Positions 16,418 to 26,194 of a stretch of 64,000 bases of DNA are shown here, piece by piece. The notes under the pieces are model-generated. The model had not been told where the DNA came from, did not search any database, and was given only the letters and a program-made list of their open reading frames with translations. Positions within the stretch are counted from its first letter, which is position 1; every line of letters starts with the position of its first letter. The DNA is from Cryomorphaceae bacterium (GTDB lineage: Bacteria > Bacteroidota > Bacteroidia > Flavobacteriales > Schleiferiaceae): the NCBI GenBank assembly GCA_017858515.1, contig JAFMBM010000004.1, positions 1-64,000 on the forward strand, written 5' to 3'. A program made the translations under genes and the position numbers.

Positions 16418-17242
16418 ATGAAACTATTTCGATTTCTCAAAAGCAAAACATTTTTCGCAAATCTGGGCTTAGCCCTTGTGATAATGATTGTCGGTTATTT
16501 CATGATTAAGATTTTGCTAGGTGCGTTTACAAGGCATAATCAAAGTCAAGAAGTTCCCAATGTAATAGGTCTGCACTTTGAAGATGCAATGGCCGTTTTA
16601 GAAGAAAGCGTGCTCACTCTGGATATTTCTGACAGTTCAGAGTTTAATATTGACTATCCGGGCCAGCACATTTACTCTCAATATCCATTACCTGGATCGA
16701 AGGTGAAAAAAAATAGAGCCATACGTGTAACCATAAACCCAAGCAAAGAGAAGCCAATCGCTCTTCCAAATGTTTTGGAAAAGACAAGAGTGAGGGCCTT
16801 GGCGGAGTTGGAGAGTAGGGGGTTTATCATACAAGACATACAGTACGTGTCTTATATCGGAAAAGATGTGGTAGTGGCTGTACAGCTTAAGGGTAAAGAA
16901 GTAATTCCAGGAACACCTTTGAATAGAGGAACCAAATTGGTGGTCATTCTCGGTGAAGGTTTGGGAGATGAAATATTAAGTGTTCCTTTTTTAGGTGGAT
17001 TGAAGTTTTGGGAAGTTAAAGCCTTGCTAGCCAGTCACTCTCTGAATATAGGAGCCGTTCTTTTTGATGCCGAAGAAGACACAGTGAATGCAGTTGTATT
17101 TAAACAATATCCGCCTTATGGAAATCAACCGGGGGCTAGATCAGGATCAGATGTGGATATTTGGCTAACATTAGACAATAACAAAGTACCTTCTGGGCCG
17201 TTATCGCAATTGGACAGTCTATCTCAAACTCCTCAACAATGA
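16418..17242 (+). CDS. Membrane-anchored protein with three PASTA domains
   Basis: The 274-residue protein has one N-terminal transmembrane helix (about residues 13-36) followed by three PASTA repeats of about 65-70 residues, each opening with a VPN or LPN-like motif (EVPNVIGLHFEDA, IALPNVLEKTRVRA, LSVPFLGGLKFWE). PASTA domains bind peptidoglycan or muropeptides; the absence of kinase or transpeptidase domains leaves a wall-binding anchor of unknown function. It lies beside ddl, in keeping with an envelope role, and overlaps the following T9SS gene by ATGA. Starts at 16409 (ATG) or 16391 (TTG) are possible, but the promoter position favours 16418. Confidence 0.85.
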   Translation: MKLFRFLKSKTFFANLGLALVIMIVGYFMIKILLGAFTRHNQSQEVPNVIGLHFEDAMAVLEESVLTLDISDSSEFNIDYPGQHIYSQYPLPGSKVKKNRAIRVTINPSKEKPIALPNVLEKTRVRALAELESRGFIIQDIQYVSYIGKDVVVAVQLKGKEVIPGTPLNRGTKLVVILGEGLGDEILSVPFLGGLKFWEVKALLASHSLNIGAVLFDAEEDTVNAVVFKQYPPYGNQPGARSGSDVDIWLTLDNNKVPSGPLSQLDSLSQTPQQ

Positions 17243-19056
17243 CCGTAAGGTTGACGTATCGTTTTTTAGTGCTATTTCTTTTTCCTTCTTTATTTGGCTT
17301 GAAAGCTCAGATTAAGGAATCTAGTTCACCCTATCGCAGTCCTATTACTCAGAACCTCAAAGTGCAAGCGGCAGGCGATACCATTGGTCTGCCTTTAAGA
17401 GACGATTTTTCAAGAAAATATGGATGGCCCAGTGCGAGGTATTGGTCGGACAATAAAGTATGGATTAACAATTCTTACGGTGTTGACGTACCTACTAGAG
17501 GAGTGGCCACTTTTGATGGCCTAGACGAGTATGGCTATGCTTATGATATTGCAGACAATAGTTCTGATACCATTGCCGATGTGCTTACCAGTCGTTTTTT
17601 CAACTTTACCGGTGTTCCTTCCAACTTGGCATTGACTTTTAAATACCAGGAGGCAGGAAAAGGAGAAGCACCTGCTTCAGGAGATTTTTTAACCGTTCAA
17701 TTTTGGTCTCCAATAGATTCTAGTTGGACAGAGGTTTGGAGGAAGGGGGCTACGGGTTCTCGAAAGTTCAGAAATGCTTTCCTGAAAGTAGATTCATCTG
17801 CTTTTCTTTTGGATGGATTTCGCTTTCGATTTGCTGCTTACGGTGCGCGTTCAGGTTCATTTGATATTTGGAATGTAGATTATGTAATTCTAGATCAAAA
17901 TAGACTTCCAGCAGACACCTTGTTTACGGATCCTGGGTTCACCCGACCTCATGCACCTTTGTTAAAAGATTTCAACGCTTTACCGTGGTTCCATCTCGAT
18001 GGTCCTCAGAATCCTTTTGTAAATGCAGTAGATCTATACTATCGCAAGAATGGGGATACTCAAAGTGTTAGTATCAACCTTCGTGGATATACTTTACAAA
18101 GAGATGGACAAATACTGGCCACGAAGAACGGAATTCCATGGAATCAGGGTTCTTATAATAGAGAACAAAAAGTTCCCGTACCTATCGACCCTTTCACTAT
18201 CACGACTCCTACAGCTCCCTTTAAACTAAGCATTAGCAGCGTATTAACGGGTTCGAATGATGGTTTTCGATCGAATGACACCTTGAGAGGAGAGCATATT
18301 TTTGATAATTACTACGCTTTCGATGATGGTTCTGCAGAGCGAGTATATGGCATTAGTAATGTAAGCGGCGCCGCTTCGGCCATTCGTTTGTCGCCCTATA
18401 AATCAGATACTATTAAAGGTATTTATGCCTATTTCGGACAAGCACAGGTAAAAAGTTCCAATAATTCGTTTCGAATTGGCATTTGGAGTGATCTAGGGGG
18501 ACAACCTGGAAATGCTATCTACATTTCGGATTCTATATACAGACCTAATTATTACCAAACAGATCAATTCATCGCTTGGACTCTAGATACACCAGGCTTG
18601 TATTTGAATACTTCCTTTTATATCGGACTCATTCAACAAACTGTAAACCCTTTAAATATTGGGTTAGATGTGGAAACAAAGGAAGGGGACACGAATACAT
18701 ACATTTTTTATTCGGATGGAAGCAATTGGTTTCAAAGTCTTTTTCAAGGACGTCTTATGCTTCGGCCTTATTTTAAATATCAGCCAGTTGACTTATCTAT
18801 TCGAAATCCTCTTCTCGCAGAGAAATCTATAAAGCTTTATCCAAATCCCGCACGAAGTTCATTTACTGTAGAATGGCAAGATGAGCAAGATTTCAGTTTA
18901 ACAGTTTACGATATCCTTGGCAATCAAATAGACTATGTTCAAGGCAGCTCAGATGCAATAGATATTCGTTGTGATGGTTGGAAGAGAGGGATATATTTGA
19001 TCAAATGGCAAGGAAAGAAGGGAAAGATTCTTCACAAGAAGATGATAATCGATTGA
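17239..19056 (+). CDS. Large secreted protein with T9SS sorting domain
   Basis: The 605-residue protein has a signal peptide (LTYRFLVLFLFPSLFGLKAQ) and a C-terminal T9SS sorting domain of about 75 residues (IKLYPNPARSSFTVEW ... GIYLIKW). The middle is rich in aromatic and Asp/Ser/Gly residues with jelly-roll-like stretches (LTSRFFNFTGVPSNLALTFKY, SGSFDIWNVDYVILD), consistent with surface adhesion or carbohydrate-binding modules, but no catalytic motif could be recognised. It overlaps the PASTA gene by ATGA and rluD by one base (TGATG), so the three genes are coupled. Confidence 0.8.
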   Translation: MTVRLTYRFLVLFLFPSLFGLKAQIKESSSPYRSPITQNLKVQAAGDTIGLPLRDDFSRKYGWPSARYWSDNKVWINNSYGVDVPTRGVATFDGLDEYGYAYDIADNSSDTIADVLTSRFFNFTGVPSNLALTFKYQEAGKGEAPASGDFLTVQFWSPIDSSWTEVWRKGATGSRKFRNAFLKVDSSAFLLDGFRFRFAAYGARSGSFDIWNVDYVILDQNRLPADTLFTDPGFTRPHAPLLKDFNALPWFHLDGPQNPFVNAVDLYYRKNGDTQSVSINLRGYTLQRDGQILATKNGIPWNQGSYNREQKVPVPIDPFTITTPTAPFKLSISSVLTGSNDGFRSNDTLRGEHIFDNYYAFDDGSAERVYGISNVSGAASAIRLSPYKSDTIKGIYAYFGQAQVKSSNNSFRIGIWSDLGGQPGNAIYISDSIYRPNYYQTDQFIAWTLDTPGLYLNTSFYIGLIQQTVNPLNIGLDVETKEGDTNTYIFYSDGSNWFQSLFQGRLMLRPYFKYQPVDLSIRNPLLAEKSIKLYPNPARSSFTVEWQDEQDFSLTVYDILGNQIDYVQGSSDAIDIRCDGWKRGIYLIKWQGKKGKILHKKMIID

Positions 19057-21272: not shown

Positions 21273-21845
21273 ATGAAAGCAAGGACAGTACTTATGGGGG
21301 TTACCGCTGGAATAATTTTGATGGCATCTCCTTCATGTAAAAGCAAAAAGAAACCTGTTGAACCACCTAAAGGAGAGGTAGAAATAGTTCTTCCTTGTAC
21401 AGAGTTCAAGTCAGACAAAAAGTATTTTAGAGCGTATTCCTTTGGGGAAAGTTCAGACCCTAATGTGGCTAAAAAGAAAGCTTTAAGCAATGCCAGAGCG
21501 GAATTAGCTGCTCAGATTTCTACAGTAATTAAAACAGTTGGAGATAATTATGTAAAATCTTCAGAGTTTAATAATGTTGAAGAAGTGTTGGAGCGTTTCG
21601 AAGAGAACTCTAGAACGGTAGTGAACGAAAGAATCAGTGGAGCTAAGGCAGTTTGTGATAAGCTTACCGAGGTTACTTCTACAAAGCGTTACAAATATTA
21701 TGTAGCTCTTGAGCTATCAGGTGACGAATTAGTGGATGATTATTATAAAACATTAAGTAATGATCAGAGTCTGAAAATAGACTACGATTATGAAAAATTC
21801 AAGAAGACTTTTGACGAGGAGATGAAGAAATTGGAAAATCAATAA
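21273..21845 (+). CDS. LPP20-type lipoprotein
   Basis: The 190-residue protein has a lipoprotein signal ending MASPSC-KSKKK (Cys22), then an LPP20-like domain: the strand FRAYSFGESSDPN, a helix ALSNARAELAAQIST and a following strand segment KRYKYYVALELSG. LPP20 proteins include FlgP of Vibrio and Campylobacter, which form outer-membrane-associated rings. No flagellar genes are present here. Two further lipoproteins of related kind converge from the right, so the three may act together. A shared bidirectional terminator follows at once. Confidence 0.78.
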   Translation: MKARTVLMGVTAGIILMASPSCKSKKKPVEPPKGEVEIVLPCTEFKSDKKYFRAYSFGESSDPNVAKKKALSNARAELAAQISTVIKTVGDNYVKSSEFNNVEEVLERFEENSRTVVNERISGAKAVCDKLTEVTSTKRYKYYVALELSGDELVDDYYKTLSNDQSLKIDYDYEKFKKTFDEEMKKLENQ

Positions 21846-21855
21846 ATGAATCTTT

Positions 21856-21892
21856 AAAAAAGGAGGCTGTCTGAAAAGACAGCCTTTTTTTT
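21856..21892. terminator. Bidirectional intrinsic terminator
   Basis: The stem aggctgtct / agacagcct (loop gaaa) is flanked by an A-run and an eight-base T-run. It serves the plus-strand LPP20-type gene and the converging lipoprotein operon. Confidence 0.9.
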
Positions 21893-21903
21893 GTGCTCAA
21901 GAA

Positions 21904-23289
21904 TTATAGACCAAAGGCAATGCGAATAAAGTCTTTGTAGTATCTCCTATCAATTTCAGTTTTAACCTTTGAAAAAGCATCTTCAGATGCCCTTTTATAG
22001 TCAAGCTGTACTCCTTTTACTCTATCTAAATTTACTTGGTGTATAAGCTTACCATTTTTGTCGCTCAATCGAATTCTTCCAGTTAATAAAGCACTATAAA
22101 AAGAATCCATTTGGCCTCCATTCTCAGTATTTGCAAGTATCTCCATCACAAAATCGGCATCTCCTGAACTTTTAACGGCAAATCCGTCCTTTAAAAACGC
22201 ACTTTCCATGGTATTCAAAAGCACTTGTGAATTTCGACTTTCGCCGAATTCTGATTCTTCTGAGATTAAGAGAATGGTTGGTTTTACCAACTTAAGTTGA
22301 AGACTGGCTTCTGCAGGTTTAATTGAGCTGGCCATTAAGCCAATAATAGGATCCTCTGTGCTTCGGTCAATAATTTCAACCATATTGACAGTAGCCGTTA
22401 ACCTTCCACCCTTAGAGTCCATGTTTTGAGGTAATTCAGAAAGACTCACTAATCCATTTTGATCAGAGTATAATGTGGGATCCTTTAAGCGAGCATCACT
22501 CAAATTGAGAAAGACGGGAATATTCGGGAGCAGATTTCCTTCATGCGAACGCATTTGAAATCCAACTAAATTTCGTGGAAGACTAAGTCCGATTTTCCAT
22601 TCTATTTCATCCTTTATAGGTTCAATTCGGACATTTCGAATTGCTGTAGTGAGCTCGGTGTAAAGCGTGTTTCCAAGGAAAATCTCGCTCCCATTGTCGT
22701 CTACCTTTAGTGGCTCATTCCAGAAATCAGAAATAGCTTCAAGTGCTTTCAAGTAAGATTCAATGGCCTCCTGATCTTTTCCATTTAAATAAAATGATTG
22801 GGCTTGTCTTCTAAGTTGAACCGCCAATTCAGTTGCATTTTTCCTCCTTTGTTCTAATTCTCGCTGGTATTTCGACTTTTCTAAAGTGTAATAGACCCAA
22901 TATTGGGTAGGCGTTTCATAAACATCTTGAATTTCATAACCCCTTAGTTGTTTGGCCGTTTTGGTCCTGATATTTGATTGAAATCGCTCTTTATATTCAA
23001 AATTATTTTCCATCTGATTTAAAAGAGAACTTCCCGACACTTCAATGGAAATTTCGCTTGCCAAATCAGTTAAAGCCTGGTTCTTTGCAATTTGAATATG
23101 ATCTGCCCCTGAAGATAGTTTCCGTGCAGAGCCAATACCAACGTAGGTGTTCGGATCAATAGGTCTAGATTTAACCCAATAGGGTCTATCATCGACTGGA
23201 ATAAGCACCTGATTCGCATCTTTTTTCGACTTACAACTAGAAAGTGGAATGGTAACGACTAGAATGGTGAGAAGGAGAAATATGCGCAT
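21904..23289 (-). CDS. Large LPP20-domain lipoprotein
   Basis: The 461-residue protein begins MRIFLLLTILVVTIPLSSC (Cys19), again followed by KSKK. Residues about 40-155 resemble an LPP20 domain (YVGIGSARKLSSGADHIQIA, NQALTDLASEISIEVSGSSL, TQYWVYYTLEKSKY). A TPR-like helical pair (LRRQAQSFYLNGKDQEAIES) and beta-rich C-terminal domains follow, one near LPNIPVFLNLSDARLK resembling an Ig/CNA-type fold. The upstream start at 23331 would remove the lipoprotein signal from the N-terminus, so 23289 is used. It lies 4 bp after the CsgG-like gene, so the two are an operon. Confidence 0.75.
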   Translation of the reverse strand: MRIFLLLTILVVTIPLSSCKSKKDANQVLIPVDDRPYWVKSRPIDPNTYVGIGSARKLSSGADHIQIAKNQALTDLASEISIEVSGSSLLNQMENNFEYKERFQSNIRTKTAKQLRGYEIQDVYETPTQYWVYYTLEKSKYQRELEQRRKNATELAVQLRRQAQSFYLNGKDQEAIESYLKALEAISDFWNEPLKVDDNGSEIFLGNTLYTELTTAIRNVRIEPIKDEIEWKIGLSLPRNLVGFQMRSHEGNLLPNIPVFLNLSDARLKDPTLYSDQNGLVSLSELPQNMDSKGGRLTATVNMVEIIDRSTEDPIIGLMASSIKPAEASLQLKLVKPTILLISEESEFGESRNSQVLLNTMESAFLKDGFAVKSSGDADFVMEILANTENGGQMDSFYSALLTGRIRLSDKNGKLIHQVNLDRVKGVQLDYKRASEDAFSKVKTEIDRRYYKDFIRIAFGL

Positions 23290-23293
23290 AGAA

Positions 23294-24664
23294 CTATTTA
23301 ATTGTATTGATAAGTGCATCTGCAATTTCATTTCCTATTACAGAGTAAACTTCAGAAGCTAATTGACTACTAGACTTGATACTTCTTGGAGCGTTCGCCA
23401 TGCGTTCGATATTCTTTTTAGAAGAGAAGTTTTGATCAACGCGATCATCTGAACTTCTTGATCCCCATGTGCCAGGATATAATTTCCTCACATCTCCTTT
23501 GTAATCAATATATTCAAGATTATCACTACGCTCAACGTTTATGACATCCGCTGCGATTATTTCGCCAGTAGTGGTAGAAATTAAACGATACTGAAAGGTG
23601 CAAGCAGCTGTATTATTCTGCCTAACAATGTTATAGCTTACTCGGTCATATTCATAAATCGTTTTAGTCTGACCAGTTTTGGGATCTTTAACTTTAACGG
23701 CCCTCGAAGTGAATCCTTTCTTTTGTTCTCGATTTAAATTTCCATCCACCAGATTGCCTTGAATGATTTCTCCACTCAATATGACATCCGCACCAAGCAA
23801 CTGTCCAGCTGATGTGCTTTCACTGTTTTCGAAAGTTCCATCCATATTCAGTCGTTGCTCTTGCAAGACAATCTTTGTTTTGCTTCGATCTAAAACTCGC
23901 AAAAAGGGATTATTAGATTCTAGGATGGCGCGGGAGAGAGAAGACGCTATTGCCTCGCTCATTGCTTTATGTGAAGTTCTGTTTTCGATGGCCAACAAGC
24001 CAACGGTATATCTTCCGTTTTCTTGACAAATTTCCTGAAGATTTCGACTGTCTTTGAAATTGCCTTTTGAGTTAATCTGCTCGAATAAATAGTAAGCTTC
24101 GCGATAATCACCAGAATTGTAAGCTTCAATGGCTCTGTTGTATAAAGGTTGTTGAAAGGCTTCGGTACTTAGTTTAAAGGCATCTTTGAAATTAGGACTG
24201 AGCACCTGAACTTCGTCTAGTTTTGATTTAGCCTCTTGATAGTTCTCCTTTCTGAGATCTTCGTTTGCTGAGCTATATAGTTGATTAATATAAATCGATT
24301 TAGACTCCTCATACATTTGGTTGTATGATTCGGGAAGGTCTAAGTTCACTCCAACAAATTGAACACGATCTCTAAATTTTACTGCGTCAAGATAGGTGTA
24401 GACCGCTTTTTTATGGTCGGAAGTTGCCTGGGCTTGAAAGAAATCGGCAAGCTTATCATCTAAAACATTTTGCCCTGTTTTTTTCAATGCAATTTTGGCA
24501 TCAACATTGGTTTTTTTTCTAACCAATGCATCGATATAATACTCAACAGCTTCAGTTTTCATCCCCGCTTCGTCGAGCTTGAAACCCTTTTTTAGCATGG
24601 ATTTACTTCCACTACATGCGGCGATTAATAGAAAAATAATAAAACAGGATAGAAATTTTTTCAT
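23294..24664 (-). CDS. CsgG-like outer-membrane lipoprotein with TPR-like N-terminus
   Basis: The 456-residue lipoprotein (signal MKKFLSCFIIFLLIAAC, Cys17) has TPR-like helical pairs across about residues 20-210 (DEAGMKTEAVEYYIDALVR, YNSGDYREAYYLFEQI). A CsgG-type domain (about 215-450) follows, with YTVGLLAIENRTSHKAMSEA, FLRVLDRSKTKIVLQEQRLN and LLGADVILSGEIIQGN. CsgG forms an outer-membrane export channel for curli; wider family members are periplasmic lipoproteins of unknown role, so channel formation is not established here. It is the promoter-proximal gene of a two-gene operon and is divergent from yaaA. Confidence 0.8.
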   Translation of the reverse strand: MKKFLSCFIIFLLIAACSGSKSMLKKGFKLDEAGMKTEAVEYYIDALVRKKTNVDAKIALKKTGQNVLDDKLADFFQAQATSDHKKAVYTYLDAVKFRDRVQFVGVNLDLPESYNQMYEESKSIYINQLYSSANEDLRKENYQEAKSKLDEVQVLSPNFKDAFKLSTEAFQQPLYNRAIEAYNSGDYREAYYLFEQINSKGNFKDSRNLQEICQENGRYTVGLLAIENRTSHKAMSEAIASSLSRAILESNNPFLRVLDRSKTKIVLQEQRLNMDGTFENSESTSAGQLLGADVILSGEIIQGNLVDGNLNREQKKGFTSRAVKVKDPKTGQTKTIYEYDRVSYNIVRQNNTAACTFQYRLISTTTGEIIAADVINVERSDNLEYIDYKGDVRKLYPGTWGSRSSDDRVDQNFSSKKNIERMANAPRSIKSSSQLASEVYSVIGNEIADALINTIK

Positions 24665-24699: not shown

Positions 24700-24761
24700 C
24701 TTTTATGTATTTCCAAAAAGAATGCCAATGCTTAGCTTCGCCCAATAGATTAAATGAATCC

Positions 24762-25529
24762 ATGATTGCTTTATTATCTCCAGCTAAACGTCTTAAAAAT
24801 ACTGAGGAATTGGTTGAAATAGAATGCTCTATTCCTAAATTTTTGCCTCAGGCGCGTGAAATCAATAGCGTTTTACGGAAGAAATCTGTCAACGCTCTGA
24901 TGAAATTACAGGGAATAAGCAAAGAATTAGCATCAAATAATTGGGAGCGAAACCAAATTTGGTCTGGAAGCGAAGAGAATAGAGGTTGGGCAGCGATCTA
25001 TTTATTCGATGGTGAAGTGTACCGTGGATTGGCTGCTGAGCATTGGAATGAGGATAATTTAGTGGCGGCTCAGAAAAGAATTCGAGTTATTTCTGGTTTA
25101 TATGGTCTTTTATCACCTTTAGACAGAGTAGAACCGTATAGATTGGAAATGGGAACGCAGATCCGAATAAAGACAAAATCGAATTTGTATGAATTTTGGC
25201 GAAAGCGGCTAACGGATGAATTAGTGGAAATTTCCAATAATCAACCCATATTGGAGTTATGTTCTACAGAGTATTCAAAGGTTTTTGATAAGAAGAGATT
25301 GGGTATGCAAATGCATCAAGTAGAATTTCTAGAATCCAAGGGAGATTCAAAGCCTAAAGCTATTCAAGTTTATTTGAAACAGGCGAGAGGTATGATGGCG
25401 AGCTTTATCATTAAAAATGAGATAAAAGATTTGAATGATATTAGAGCTTTTGACTGGGAAGGCTATAACTTTGACAACAATCTTTCTTCAGAAAGAAAAA
25501 GTGTTTTTATAAGGTATCAATCCAAATGA
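24762..25529 (+). CDS. yaaA: YaaA/DUF328 peroxide-stress protein
   Basis: The 255-residue protein is a full-length YaaA: N-terminal ALLSPAKRLK, GWAAIYLFDGEVYRGL, the conserved RVISGLYGLLSPLDRVEPYRLEMG (about residues 108-131), and the C-terminal KQARGMMASFII. E. coli YaaA limits free iron during peroxide stress and family members bind DNA with a helix-hairpin-helix-like element. The ATG at 24762 matches the family N-terminus; the in-frame ATG at 24705 adds 19 residues that look untranslated. It overlaps the following barrel gene by 4 nt. Confidence 0.92.
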   Translation: MIALLSPAKRLKNTEELVEIECSIPKFLPQAREINSVLRKKSVNALMKLQGISKELASNNWERNQIWSGSEENRGWAAIYLFDGEVYRGLAAEHWNEDNLVAAQKRIRVISGLYGLLSPLDRVEPYRLEMGTQIRIKTKSNLYEFWRKRLTDELVEISNNQPILELCSTEYSKVFDKKRLGMQMHQVEFLESKGDSKPKAIQVYLKQARGMMASFIIKNEIKDLNDIRAFDWEGYNFDNNLSSERKSVFIRYQSK

Positions 25530-26194
25530 ATTTGAGTTTGAAAAAAATATTTATCTGCGCCGCTTTTTGTGTCGCATTTCCAAGCTTGGCGCAAAGGCAG
25601 TTGAATTATACTGATTTTGGATTTGCAGTTGGAGGGATGATTCATACTGGTGAAGTATCTAATGGTGGTGTAGGAGCGTATATATCTGACGCTCGACCTC
25701 AAGCAAAGCTTAATCTGAAAAGAACTCTAGCTTCTTGGTTTACAGTAGGTATAGAAGCTGGTTACGGCTATTTGTCCGCGAACGATGAAGATCACCTTCA
25801 GACCGATCGGAATTATAGTGTTTCAACACACCTAATCCAAGTGAACCCATTTATTGAATTGAATTTCATGAAATTTGGGAAATACAGAAGAGAACAAACT
25901 TGGACACCCTATCTTAAACTAGGTGGAGGAATTGTTTTTTACAATCCAGAGTTAAATGAAGATGCAGTCTATACAAGCAAAATCGAATTGAGGCCTAATG
26001 CCTATAGCGGATTAAATTTTCTAATTGCCCTAGGTACTAAGATTAGAACAAGTTATCATTCGTATTTAACACTAGAGCCAATCATTCACTTTGCCAATTT
26101 CGACGACATAGAAGGGTGGAGATACTCGCCAAATCTAACGAATAATGACGTTTACGGTGGATTTACAGTTGGTTACAACTATATGATATTTTAG
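25526..26194 (+). CDS. Outer-membrane beta-barrel, possibly PorG/DUF6089-like
   Basis: The 222-residue protein has a signal peptide ending FPSLAQ and alternating amphipathic strands through to a C-terminal GFTVGYNYMIF with terminal Phe, as in outer-membrane barrels. The opening (FGFAVGGMIHTGEVS) and the sequence SWFTVGIEAGYGYLSANDED recall DUF6089, the family of the T9SS subunit PorG, but this was judged by eye and could equally be another small barrel. Its stop overlaps the uvrA stop on the opposite strand (TTAG at 26191-26194). Confidence 0.6.
   Translation: MNLSLKKIFICAAFCVAFPSLAQRQLNYTDFGFAVGGMIHTGEVSNGGVGAYISDARPQAKLNLKRTLASWFTVGIEAGYGYLSANDEDHLQTDRNYSVSTHLIQVNPFIELNFMKFGKYRREQTWTPYLKLGGGIVFYNPELNEDAVYTSKIELRPNAYSGLNFLIALGTKIRTSYHSYLTLEPIIHFANFDDIEGWRYSPNLTNNDVYGGFTVGYNYMIF

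Follow-up and report, generated by a model that had tools for sequence, protein, structure and literature searches.

The question raised by this locus is whether three lipoprotein genes, packed into 3.4 kb of a Cryomorphaceae genome, belong to one outer-membrane assembly. The window is the whole stretch of DNA analysed (64,000 nucleotides of contig JAFMBM010000004.1, assembly GCA_017858515.1), and the three genes are called P1, P2 and P3. P1, P2 and P3 constitute a conserved module, and it is fairly probable that their products form one periplasm-facing outer-membrane lipoprotein complex, i.e., a FlgO/FlgP/FlgT-like or PelC-like scaffold in a non-flagellar setting, which is in itself probably no membrane-spanning channel. 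P1 (21273..21845, plus strand) encodes a lipoprotein of 190 amino acids (aa) with a lone LPP20-like (SHS2) domain, assigned from the open reading frame list, a sub-threshold Pfam LPP20 match and a profile match to P2. P2 (21904..23289, minus strand) is a multidomain lipoprotein defined by Pfam and a structure model; it has 461 aa from the lipobox-proximal start at 23289 (the mechanical reading frame has 475 aa). P3 (23294..24664, minus strand; Pfam, structure model) is a lipoprotein of 456 aa with tetratricopeptide repeats (TPR) and a CsgG/LpoB domain. All three reading frames lie where an earlier note, made from the DNA sequence, had placed them, and they converge on a single terminator hairpin (21864..21885, unstranded). 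This hairpin, found by inspection and by a terminator scan, has a 9-pair stem and T runs on both strands, the longer of them on the plus strand; the scan of the region gave 7 terminator-like sites, against 3.3 expected. P1 faces the P3-P2 pair across the hairpin. P2 starts 4 nt past the P3 stop, so that P3 and P2 look co-transcribed.

Single-sequence searches of 60 genomes, the window's own included, found P3 in 29, P2 in 24 and P1 in 26. Profile searches covered 148 related genomes (the window's own included; completeness of at least 85% requested), and matches at E ≤ 0.001 were obtained for P1 in 45, P2 in 42 and P3 in 61. Clear matches were those above 150 bits for P1 (42 genomes) and above 100 bits for P3 (52 genomes); this count leaves out nine weak P3 matches as well as the P1 matches in G005, G045 and G344. 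The co-occurrence analysis proposed in the earlier note supported a connection: P3 lies directly upstream of P2, on the same strand, in all 42 genomes that have P2, and 40 of these 42 also have a clear P1. The remaining two are G005 and G344, the latter with a piece of P1 at a contig end; P1 without P2 was found in two genomes, and neither gene in 104. Fisher tests by genome gave 3e-31 for P1-P2 and 1e-27 for P3-P2; by genus, with all matches at E ≤ 0.001, the result was 2e-11 (15 genera with both P1 and P2, none with P2 only, two with P1 only and 36 with neither), none of these values being corrected for phylogeny. P1 is convergent with P2 and at most 2.5 kb away in 8 of the 40 genomes; it is on the contig of P2, 17 kb to 1.27 Mb distant, in 10; in the remaining 22 the two genes are on different contigs. 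The tight trio seen in the window thus represents one of several arrangements, and P1 is retained even when unlinked.

When named genomes were scanned with the P1 family, 80 loci of 228 relatives were kept, which extended the module to other Bacteroidota. P2 adjoins P1 in 46 of the 80 loci, co-directional (P2 before P1) in 45 and convergent in L071. P3 adjoins P2 in 16 of these 46 loci, 15 of which (15/80 P1 loci) have the co-directional order P3-P2-P1; the carriers include Fulvivirga, Xanthovirga, Acidiluteibacter, a metagenome-assembled genome (MAG) of Crocinitomicaceae and MAGs of Flavobacteriales. With unclear starts excluded, the P3-P2 gap is -4 nt in 8 of 14 cases, and the P2-P1 gap is 11-161 nt in 44 cases. 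P1 stands alone at the other 34 loci. Cultured carriers include Salibacter halophilus, Acidiluteibacter ferrifornacis and a Fulvivirga; Ohtaekwangia koreensis and Reichenbachiella faecimaris have P2-P1 only. P3 was searched for in the genomes of 43 of the 80 P1 loci, and a full-length P3 (>150 bits) was found in 12, always with P2 beside it (in two pieces at L154). Thirteen of the P1-alone loci are in searched genomes, and 11 of them have P3 elsewhere, each time with P2 beside it.

In a phylum sample of 218 genomes, P2 matched in 18 (eight above 200 bits, the window included). P3 matched in 59 at E ≤ 0.001, but apart from that of the window only two matches exceeded 200 bits, and both come from G100; since so few exceed 200 bits, most phylum P3 matches are regarded as partial TPR or CsgG-domain matches. 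The gene order in G072 is a WD40+CsgG protein, a P2-like and a P1-like protein, and in G144 the gene before P2 encodes a CsgG-only protein. Bacteroides finegoldii (NZ_OY725910.1, L219:2789-10014) has a cluster in which an LpoB/CsgG-like protein and a DUF6175 protein are followed by orthologues of P2 (285 bits) and P1 (192 bits). The co-occurrence in the relatives, the P3-P2-P1 operons elsewhere and this Bacteroides cluster establish P1, P2 and P3 as a conserved module.

The B. finegoldii cluster continues with a protein of 335 aa, by eye LPP20-like, and one resembling transglutaminases (weak Pfam match, E 0.088), the N-terminal part of the latter being similar, by eye, to neighbours at L213 and L215; the LpoB/CsgG-like protein of the cluster has a weak FlgT_C match (E 0.0034). 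A fusion of a WD40 propeller and a CsgG domain occupies the P3 slot at L206:9198-10778, upstream of a diverged P2 and P1. Genomes lacking a full-length P3 encode, at L162-L174 and L217:6603-7742, a lipoprotein-like protein (about 380 aa) whose match to P3 is confined to the N-terminal TPR part; the one that was scanned hit no Pfam family. At L180 (G350 C102), P3 is broken across several frames and P2 is almost intact, by decay or sequencing error. A search of plasmid records with the window P2 returned one record only.

The P2 model (mean predicted local distance difference test, pLDDT, 87.0) contains an LPP20 domain, a helical hairpin, a macroglobulin-like domain and then a second domain of the TolB-N/CsgG/PelC type. 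The LPP20 domain (residues 36-136; 22882..23184, minus strand) scores 42.6 bits against Pfam PF02169, above the 25.9 cut-off, and the family matches all 38 P2 members at E ≤ 0.01. The P2 LPP20 profile also matches 4kzs ('LPP20 lipofamily protein', which we take to be HP1454) at E 3e-5, and 5ok8 (Lpp20) is among the Foldseek rows for the P2 model. The macroglobulin-like or Ig-like domain (residues 218-335; 22285..22638, minus strand) is seen in the model, with complement C5 and alpha-2-macroglobulin rows at Z 9-10. Structural alignment of the model relates the C-terminal domain (residues 336-461; 21907..22284, minus strand), which resembles TolB-N, CsgG, PelC and FlgT-M, to CsgG (Z 10.6, root-mean-square deviation (rmsd) 3.7, 122 aligned), TolB (Z 10.4, rmsd 2.4, 102 aligned) and PelC (Z 10.2, rmsd 3.2, 112 aligned).

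The earlier note had counted two LPP20 proteins. This holds for P2; P1 reaches only 16.0 bits against the same Pfam cut-off, and Pfam LPP20 matches 2 of the 14 members of the P1 family profile at E ≤ 0.01. The kinship of P1 with the P2 LPP20 domain rests instead on profile comparison: the P1 profile aligns to that of P2 across the LPP20 region (hhalign probability 95.8), and to the P2 LPP20 domain alone with a probability of 92.5. An assignment of P1 as GldD was rejected; the Pfam GldD_lipo match (E 0.0064, 2/14 members) is under the cut-off and was taken as chance. A distant P1 paralogue (about 30% identity) is present in many P1 genomes, e.g., at L184:6679-7248, and is the sole P1-like gene found in G005.

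P3 is the TPR-CsgG-like lipoprotein that the earlier note had described. The P3 model (mean pLDDT 88.1) has a helical TPR half (residues 19-216; 24017..24610, minus strand), with Pfam TPR_2 in 13 of 16 family members, and a C-terminal domain of the CsgG/LpoB/PelC/FlgT-M type (residues 217-456; 23297..24016, minus strand) supported by Pfam and structural alignment. In VIA-align comparisons, the best fold match of this domain is PelC (5t10_C; Z 15.2, rmsd 2.0, 125 aligned), followed by FlgT (Z 15.1, rmsd 2.8, 143 aligned), chain 0 of entry 8z5n (the LPHT ring), a chain that we infer to be FlgT (Z 14.6, rmsd 2.6, 142 aligned), CsgG (Z 12.5, rmsd 8.2, 170 aligned) and TraT (Z 12.2, rmsd 3.9, 137 aligned); as a baseline, 14-3-3 rows reach Z 11 in the P3 comparison through helical parts. 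The full P3 profile matched chiefly TPR proteins in the PDB and no CsgG-type chain. The C-domains of P2 and P3 do not match each other by profile (probability 2.4), and their likeness is therefore one of fold only.

The Pfam matches of P3 also bring in an alternative function. P3 scores 31.6 bits against Pfam LpoB, above the 22.3 cut-off; the PDB search with the C-domain profile gave LpoB 4q6z (E 0.67) as the only plausible match, besides an unrelated enzyme (E 1.5); and the Bacteroides cluster includes an LpoB/CsgG-like protein. P3 might thus reach a penicillin-binding protein from the outer membrane and so regulate peptidoglycan synthesis, with P1 and P2 as modulators; the partner of LpoB is the UB2H-bearing PBP1B. 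However, P3 obtains 22.3 bits against the NCBIfam LpoB equivalog, far below its cut-off of 110.55, and PelC and FlgT lead the fold matches. P3 also differs from LpoB in its TPR domain and in sharing an operon with two LPP20 proteins. An LpoB-type activator is considered unlikely.

A secretion pore was the other possibility, in which P3 oligomers would be an outer-membrane export channel of the CsgG kind and P1 and P2 its accessories. P3 scores 29.7 bits against Pfam CsgG (PF03783; cut-off 20.8), the family matches all 16 P3 members at E ≤ 0.01, CsgG gives the top Foldseek rows, and long strands are predicted in the model (311-326 and 333-363). Nevertheless, the P3 regions that match the membrane hairpins of CsgG are more hydrophilic than those of Escherichia coli CsgG in 31 of 31 homologues: the grand average of hydropathy in region 1 has a mean of -1.08 and a maximum of -0.56 (CsgG -0.25), and in region 2 a mean of -0.89 and a maximum of -0.21 (CsgG -0.14). 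The alternation score of the P3 hairpins overlaps that of CsgG, so the comparison is not decisive. CsgF and the flagellar P-ring protein FlgI were searched for in 32 hand-chosen genomes (27 of the 42 P2 carriers and five non-carriers). CsgF was found in none of the 32, and the positive control was found in E. coli. A CsgG-type pore formed by P3, which moreover differs from CsgG in its TPR domain, is unlikely given the hydrophilic hairpins and the lack of CsgF in these genomes, and the export channel with two accessories seems very improbable.

The flagellar H ring of Vibrio and Campylobacter is a known parallel. P1 is a lone LPP20 lipoprotein as is FlgP, P2 has an LPP20-like and then a TolB-N/CsgG-like domain as does FlgT, and P3 has a FlgT-M-like domain. 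Residues 47-461 of P2 align to residues 1-265 of FlgT (3w1e) over 188 residues, first the N and then the M part; the rmsd of 23.2 indicates that the domain arrangements differ despite the like order. H-ring roles of FlgO, FlgP and FlgT are described in the available part of PMC6504787, and an SHS2 fold common to FlgP, Lpp20 and FlgT in that of PMC12222027. In contrast to the H ring, P3 has TPR repeats and P2 has a macroglobulin-like insert and a lipobox. FlgI was found in 0 of the 32 genomes (the positive control was found in 3 of 14 named genomes), in agreement with the non-flagellar setting suggested earlier; the bacteria in question seem to lack flagella. PelC shares its fold with the P3 C-domain, and, in the accessible text of PMC12141448, twelve of these lipoproteins form a ring in the periplasm on PelB, whose TPR domains lie within the ring; however, PelC is small and single-domain, and no Pel counterpart is known for P1 or P2. 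P2 also resembles Helicobacter Lpp20/HP1454 in its LPP20 domain. The part of PMC11756786 at hand describes FapH as a lipoprotein that forms a ring close to the outer membrane and contributes to its barrier, with interaction partners including FlgP, HP1456 and HP1454. Lpp20, HP1454 and FapH, unlike the window trio, are from Campylobacterota and are flagellum-linked.

Read by eye, P1, P2 and P3 each have an N-terminal signal peptide followed by a lipobox-like Cys. In the accessible part of PMC5080379, an acidic motif after this Cys marks lipoproteins for surface export. Such a motif (at least two acids at +2 to +6) was found in 0/45 P2, 0/15 P3 and 2/79 P1 sequences by a crude Cys rule that errs for some P3. 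On this ground a periplasm-facing anchor is argued, in which the lipidated N-termini would sit in the outer membrane's inner leaflet. P3 at L105:7183-8532 (a Fulvivirga MAG) apparently has no lipobox Cys, and lipidation of P3 may not be universal. The earlier note had also drawn attention to a KSKK after the lipid Cys of two of the proteins. It is present in P1 and P2 of the window; however, CKSKK is not conserved in P2 (2/23 relatives' sequences with a recognised Cys, 0/45 in named genomes), and is frequent in P1 (6/16 relatives' sequences, 10/79 in named genomes). A shared P1/P2 tag was thereby ruled out, and the common KSKK reads as a coincidence of near relatives.

In the favoured scaffold, P3 would contribute a CsgG/PelC/FlgT-M-type domain, the fold used in PelC, FlgT, TraT and CsgG assemblies, together with TPR repeats able to dock a client. 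P2 would be the bridge through its LPP20 domain and its second TolB-N/CsgG-type domain, and P1, the lone LPP20 subunit, would most likely pair with P2 through their related LPP20 domains. The complex would lie beneath the outer membrane, around or under another machine, as do the FlgO/FlgP/FlgT rings or the PelC ring, and the trio possibly forms a ring itself. The physical complex, its ring form, its client and its orientation are what we infer from the data above. The small non-flagellar outer-membrane assembly proposed in the earlier note is thus supported in part, by the conserved module and the searches for FlgI and CsgF, and the trio is assigned neither to the flagellar nor to the curli system; a CsgG-type pore is improbable, and the KSKK argument is not supported.

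Several observations weigh against this proposal. The earlier note had taken independent occurrence of the genes in related genomes as evidence against it, and this is mostly not what was found; the exceptions are P3 without P2 in 10/148 genomes (G014, G015, G028, G316, G322, G326, G328, G334, G337 and G345, of genera g11 and g12, where no P1 or P2 was found), the 2/148 with P1 alone, and G005, which has P2 and P3 but just the distant P1 paralogue. Among the 43 genomes searched beyond the relatives, 31 lack a full-length P3; 29 of these have P2-P1 (mostly Cyclobacteriaceae and relatives) and two have P1 alone, and because of these 29 P3 is not obligatory everywhere. TolB shares the TolB-N fold yet, to our knowledge, forms no ring. 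Rings of LPP20 proteins are tied, in the available part of PMC12222027, to an insert that follows the SHS2 helix and precedes the second strand, and that is a beta-hairpin in FlgP. The corresponding region of P2 (residues 80-118) is partly helical, with pLDDT of about 66-84, and no beta-hairpin is predicted in the model.

The three proteins might even have no joint function, being outer-membrane lipoproteins of related folds with a common lineage history. The separation of P1 from P2/P3 in 32 of 40 relatives fits this, as do the solitary P3 and P1 genes and an association test uncorrected for phylogeny. The co-directional P3-P2-P1 operons in other orders and the like order in Bacteroides speak against it, together with the constant P3-P2 adjacency and the retention of a mostly unlinked P1; it is therefore held to be highly doubtful.

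A wider version of the scaffold reading is rather unlikely, although less so than the alternatives above. A phylum-wide non-flagellar outer-membrane ring would be built from the H-ring kit of LPP20 and TolB-N/CsgG domains, and its CsgG-fold subunit would swap the docking module in each lineage to fit the client, e.g., type 9 secretion or gliding. The swaps would be TPR here, a WD40 propeller in G072, none in G144, and a plain LpoB/CsgG-like protein with DUF6175 in Bacteroides. On this view, flagella would have recruited a general outer-membrane scaffold, and the H ring would be one such version. A protein of the window (17239-19056) has a C-terminal Por secretion tail (PF18962), which makes a type 9 secretion system probable in this organism; such a system as the client of the complex is a guess drawn from this nearby cargo gene.

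The domains are known already, and so are lipoprotein assemblies of the outer membrane with LPP20 and CsgG/TolB-N folds; single genes are labelled, e.g., 'LPP20 family lipoprotein' in public records. The module is new in how it combines the domains, in its macroglobulin-like insert, in the fusion to TPR repeats and in its non-flagellar setting. A literature search, mostly by titles and with most subscription journals outside its scope, found no description of the trio or module, and within the same journals no paper on the 'LPHT ring'. Bacteroidota, with their distinctive outer membranes, are major bacteria of the sea and the gut, and a conserved uncharacterised three-protein outer-membrane module that extends to Bacteroides is an accessible genetic target. 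If the ring is true, the lipoprotein kit of the flagellar outer ring also serves cells without flagella, which would help to explain the origin of flagellar outer rings.

The neighbourhoods of the genes also differ. P1 frequently neighbours MauG/RluD/PASTA genes in the relatives' loci, and YaaA neighbours the P3-P2 pair in 17 of 28 P3 loci; with separate usual neighbours, the window is a junction of two neighbourhoods. The corresponding stretch of the window, beside P3, is 24705-26194. The DUF6089 protein, which usually comes next after YaaA, could be a candidate membrane partner.

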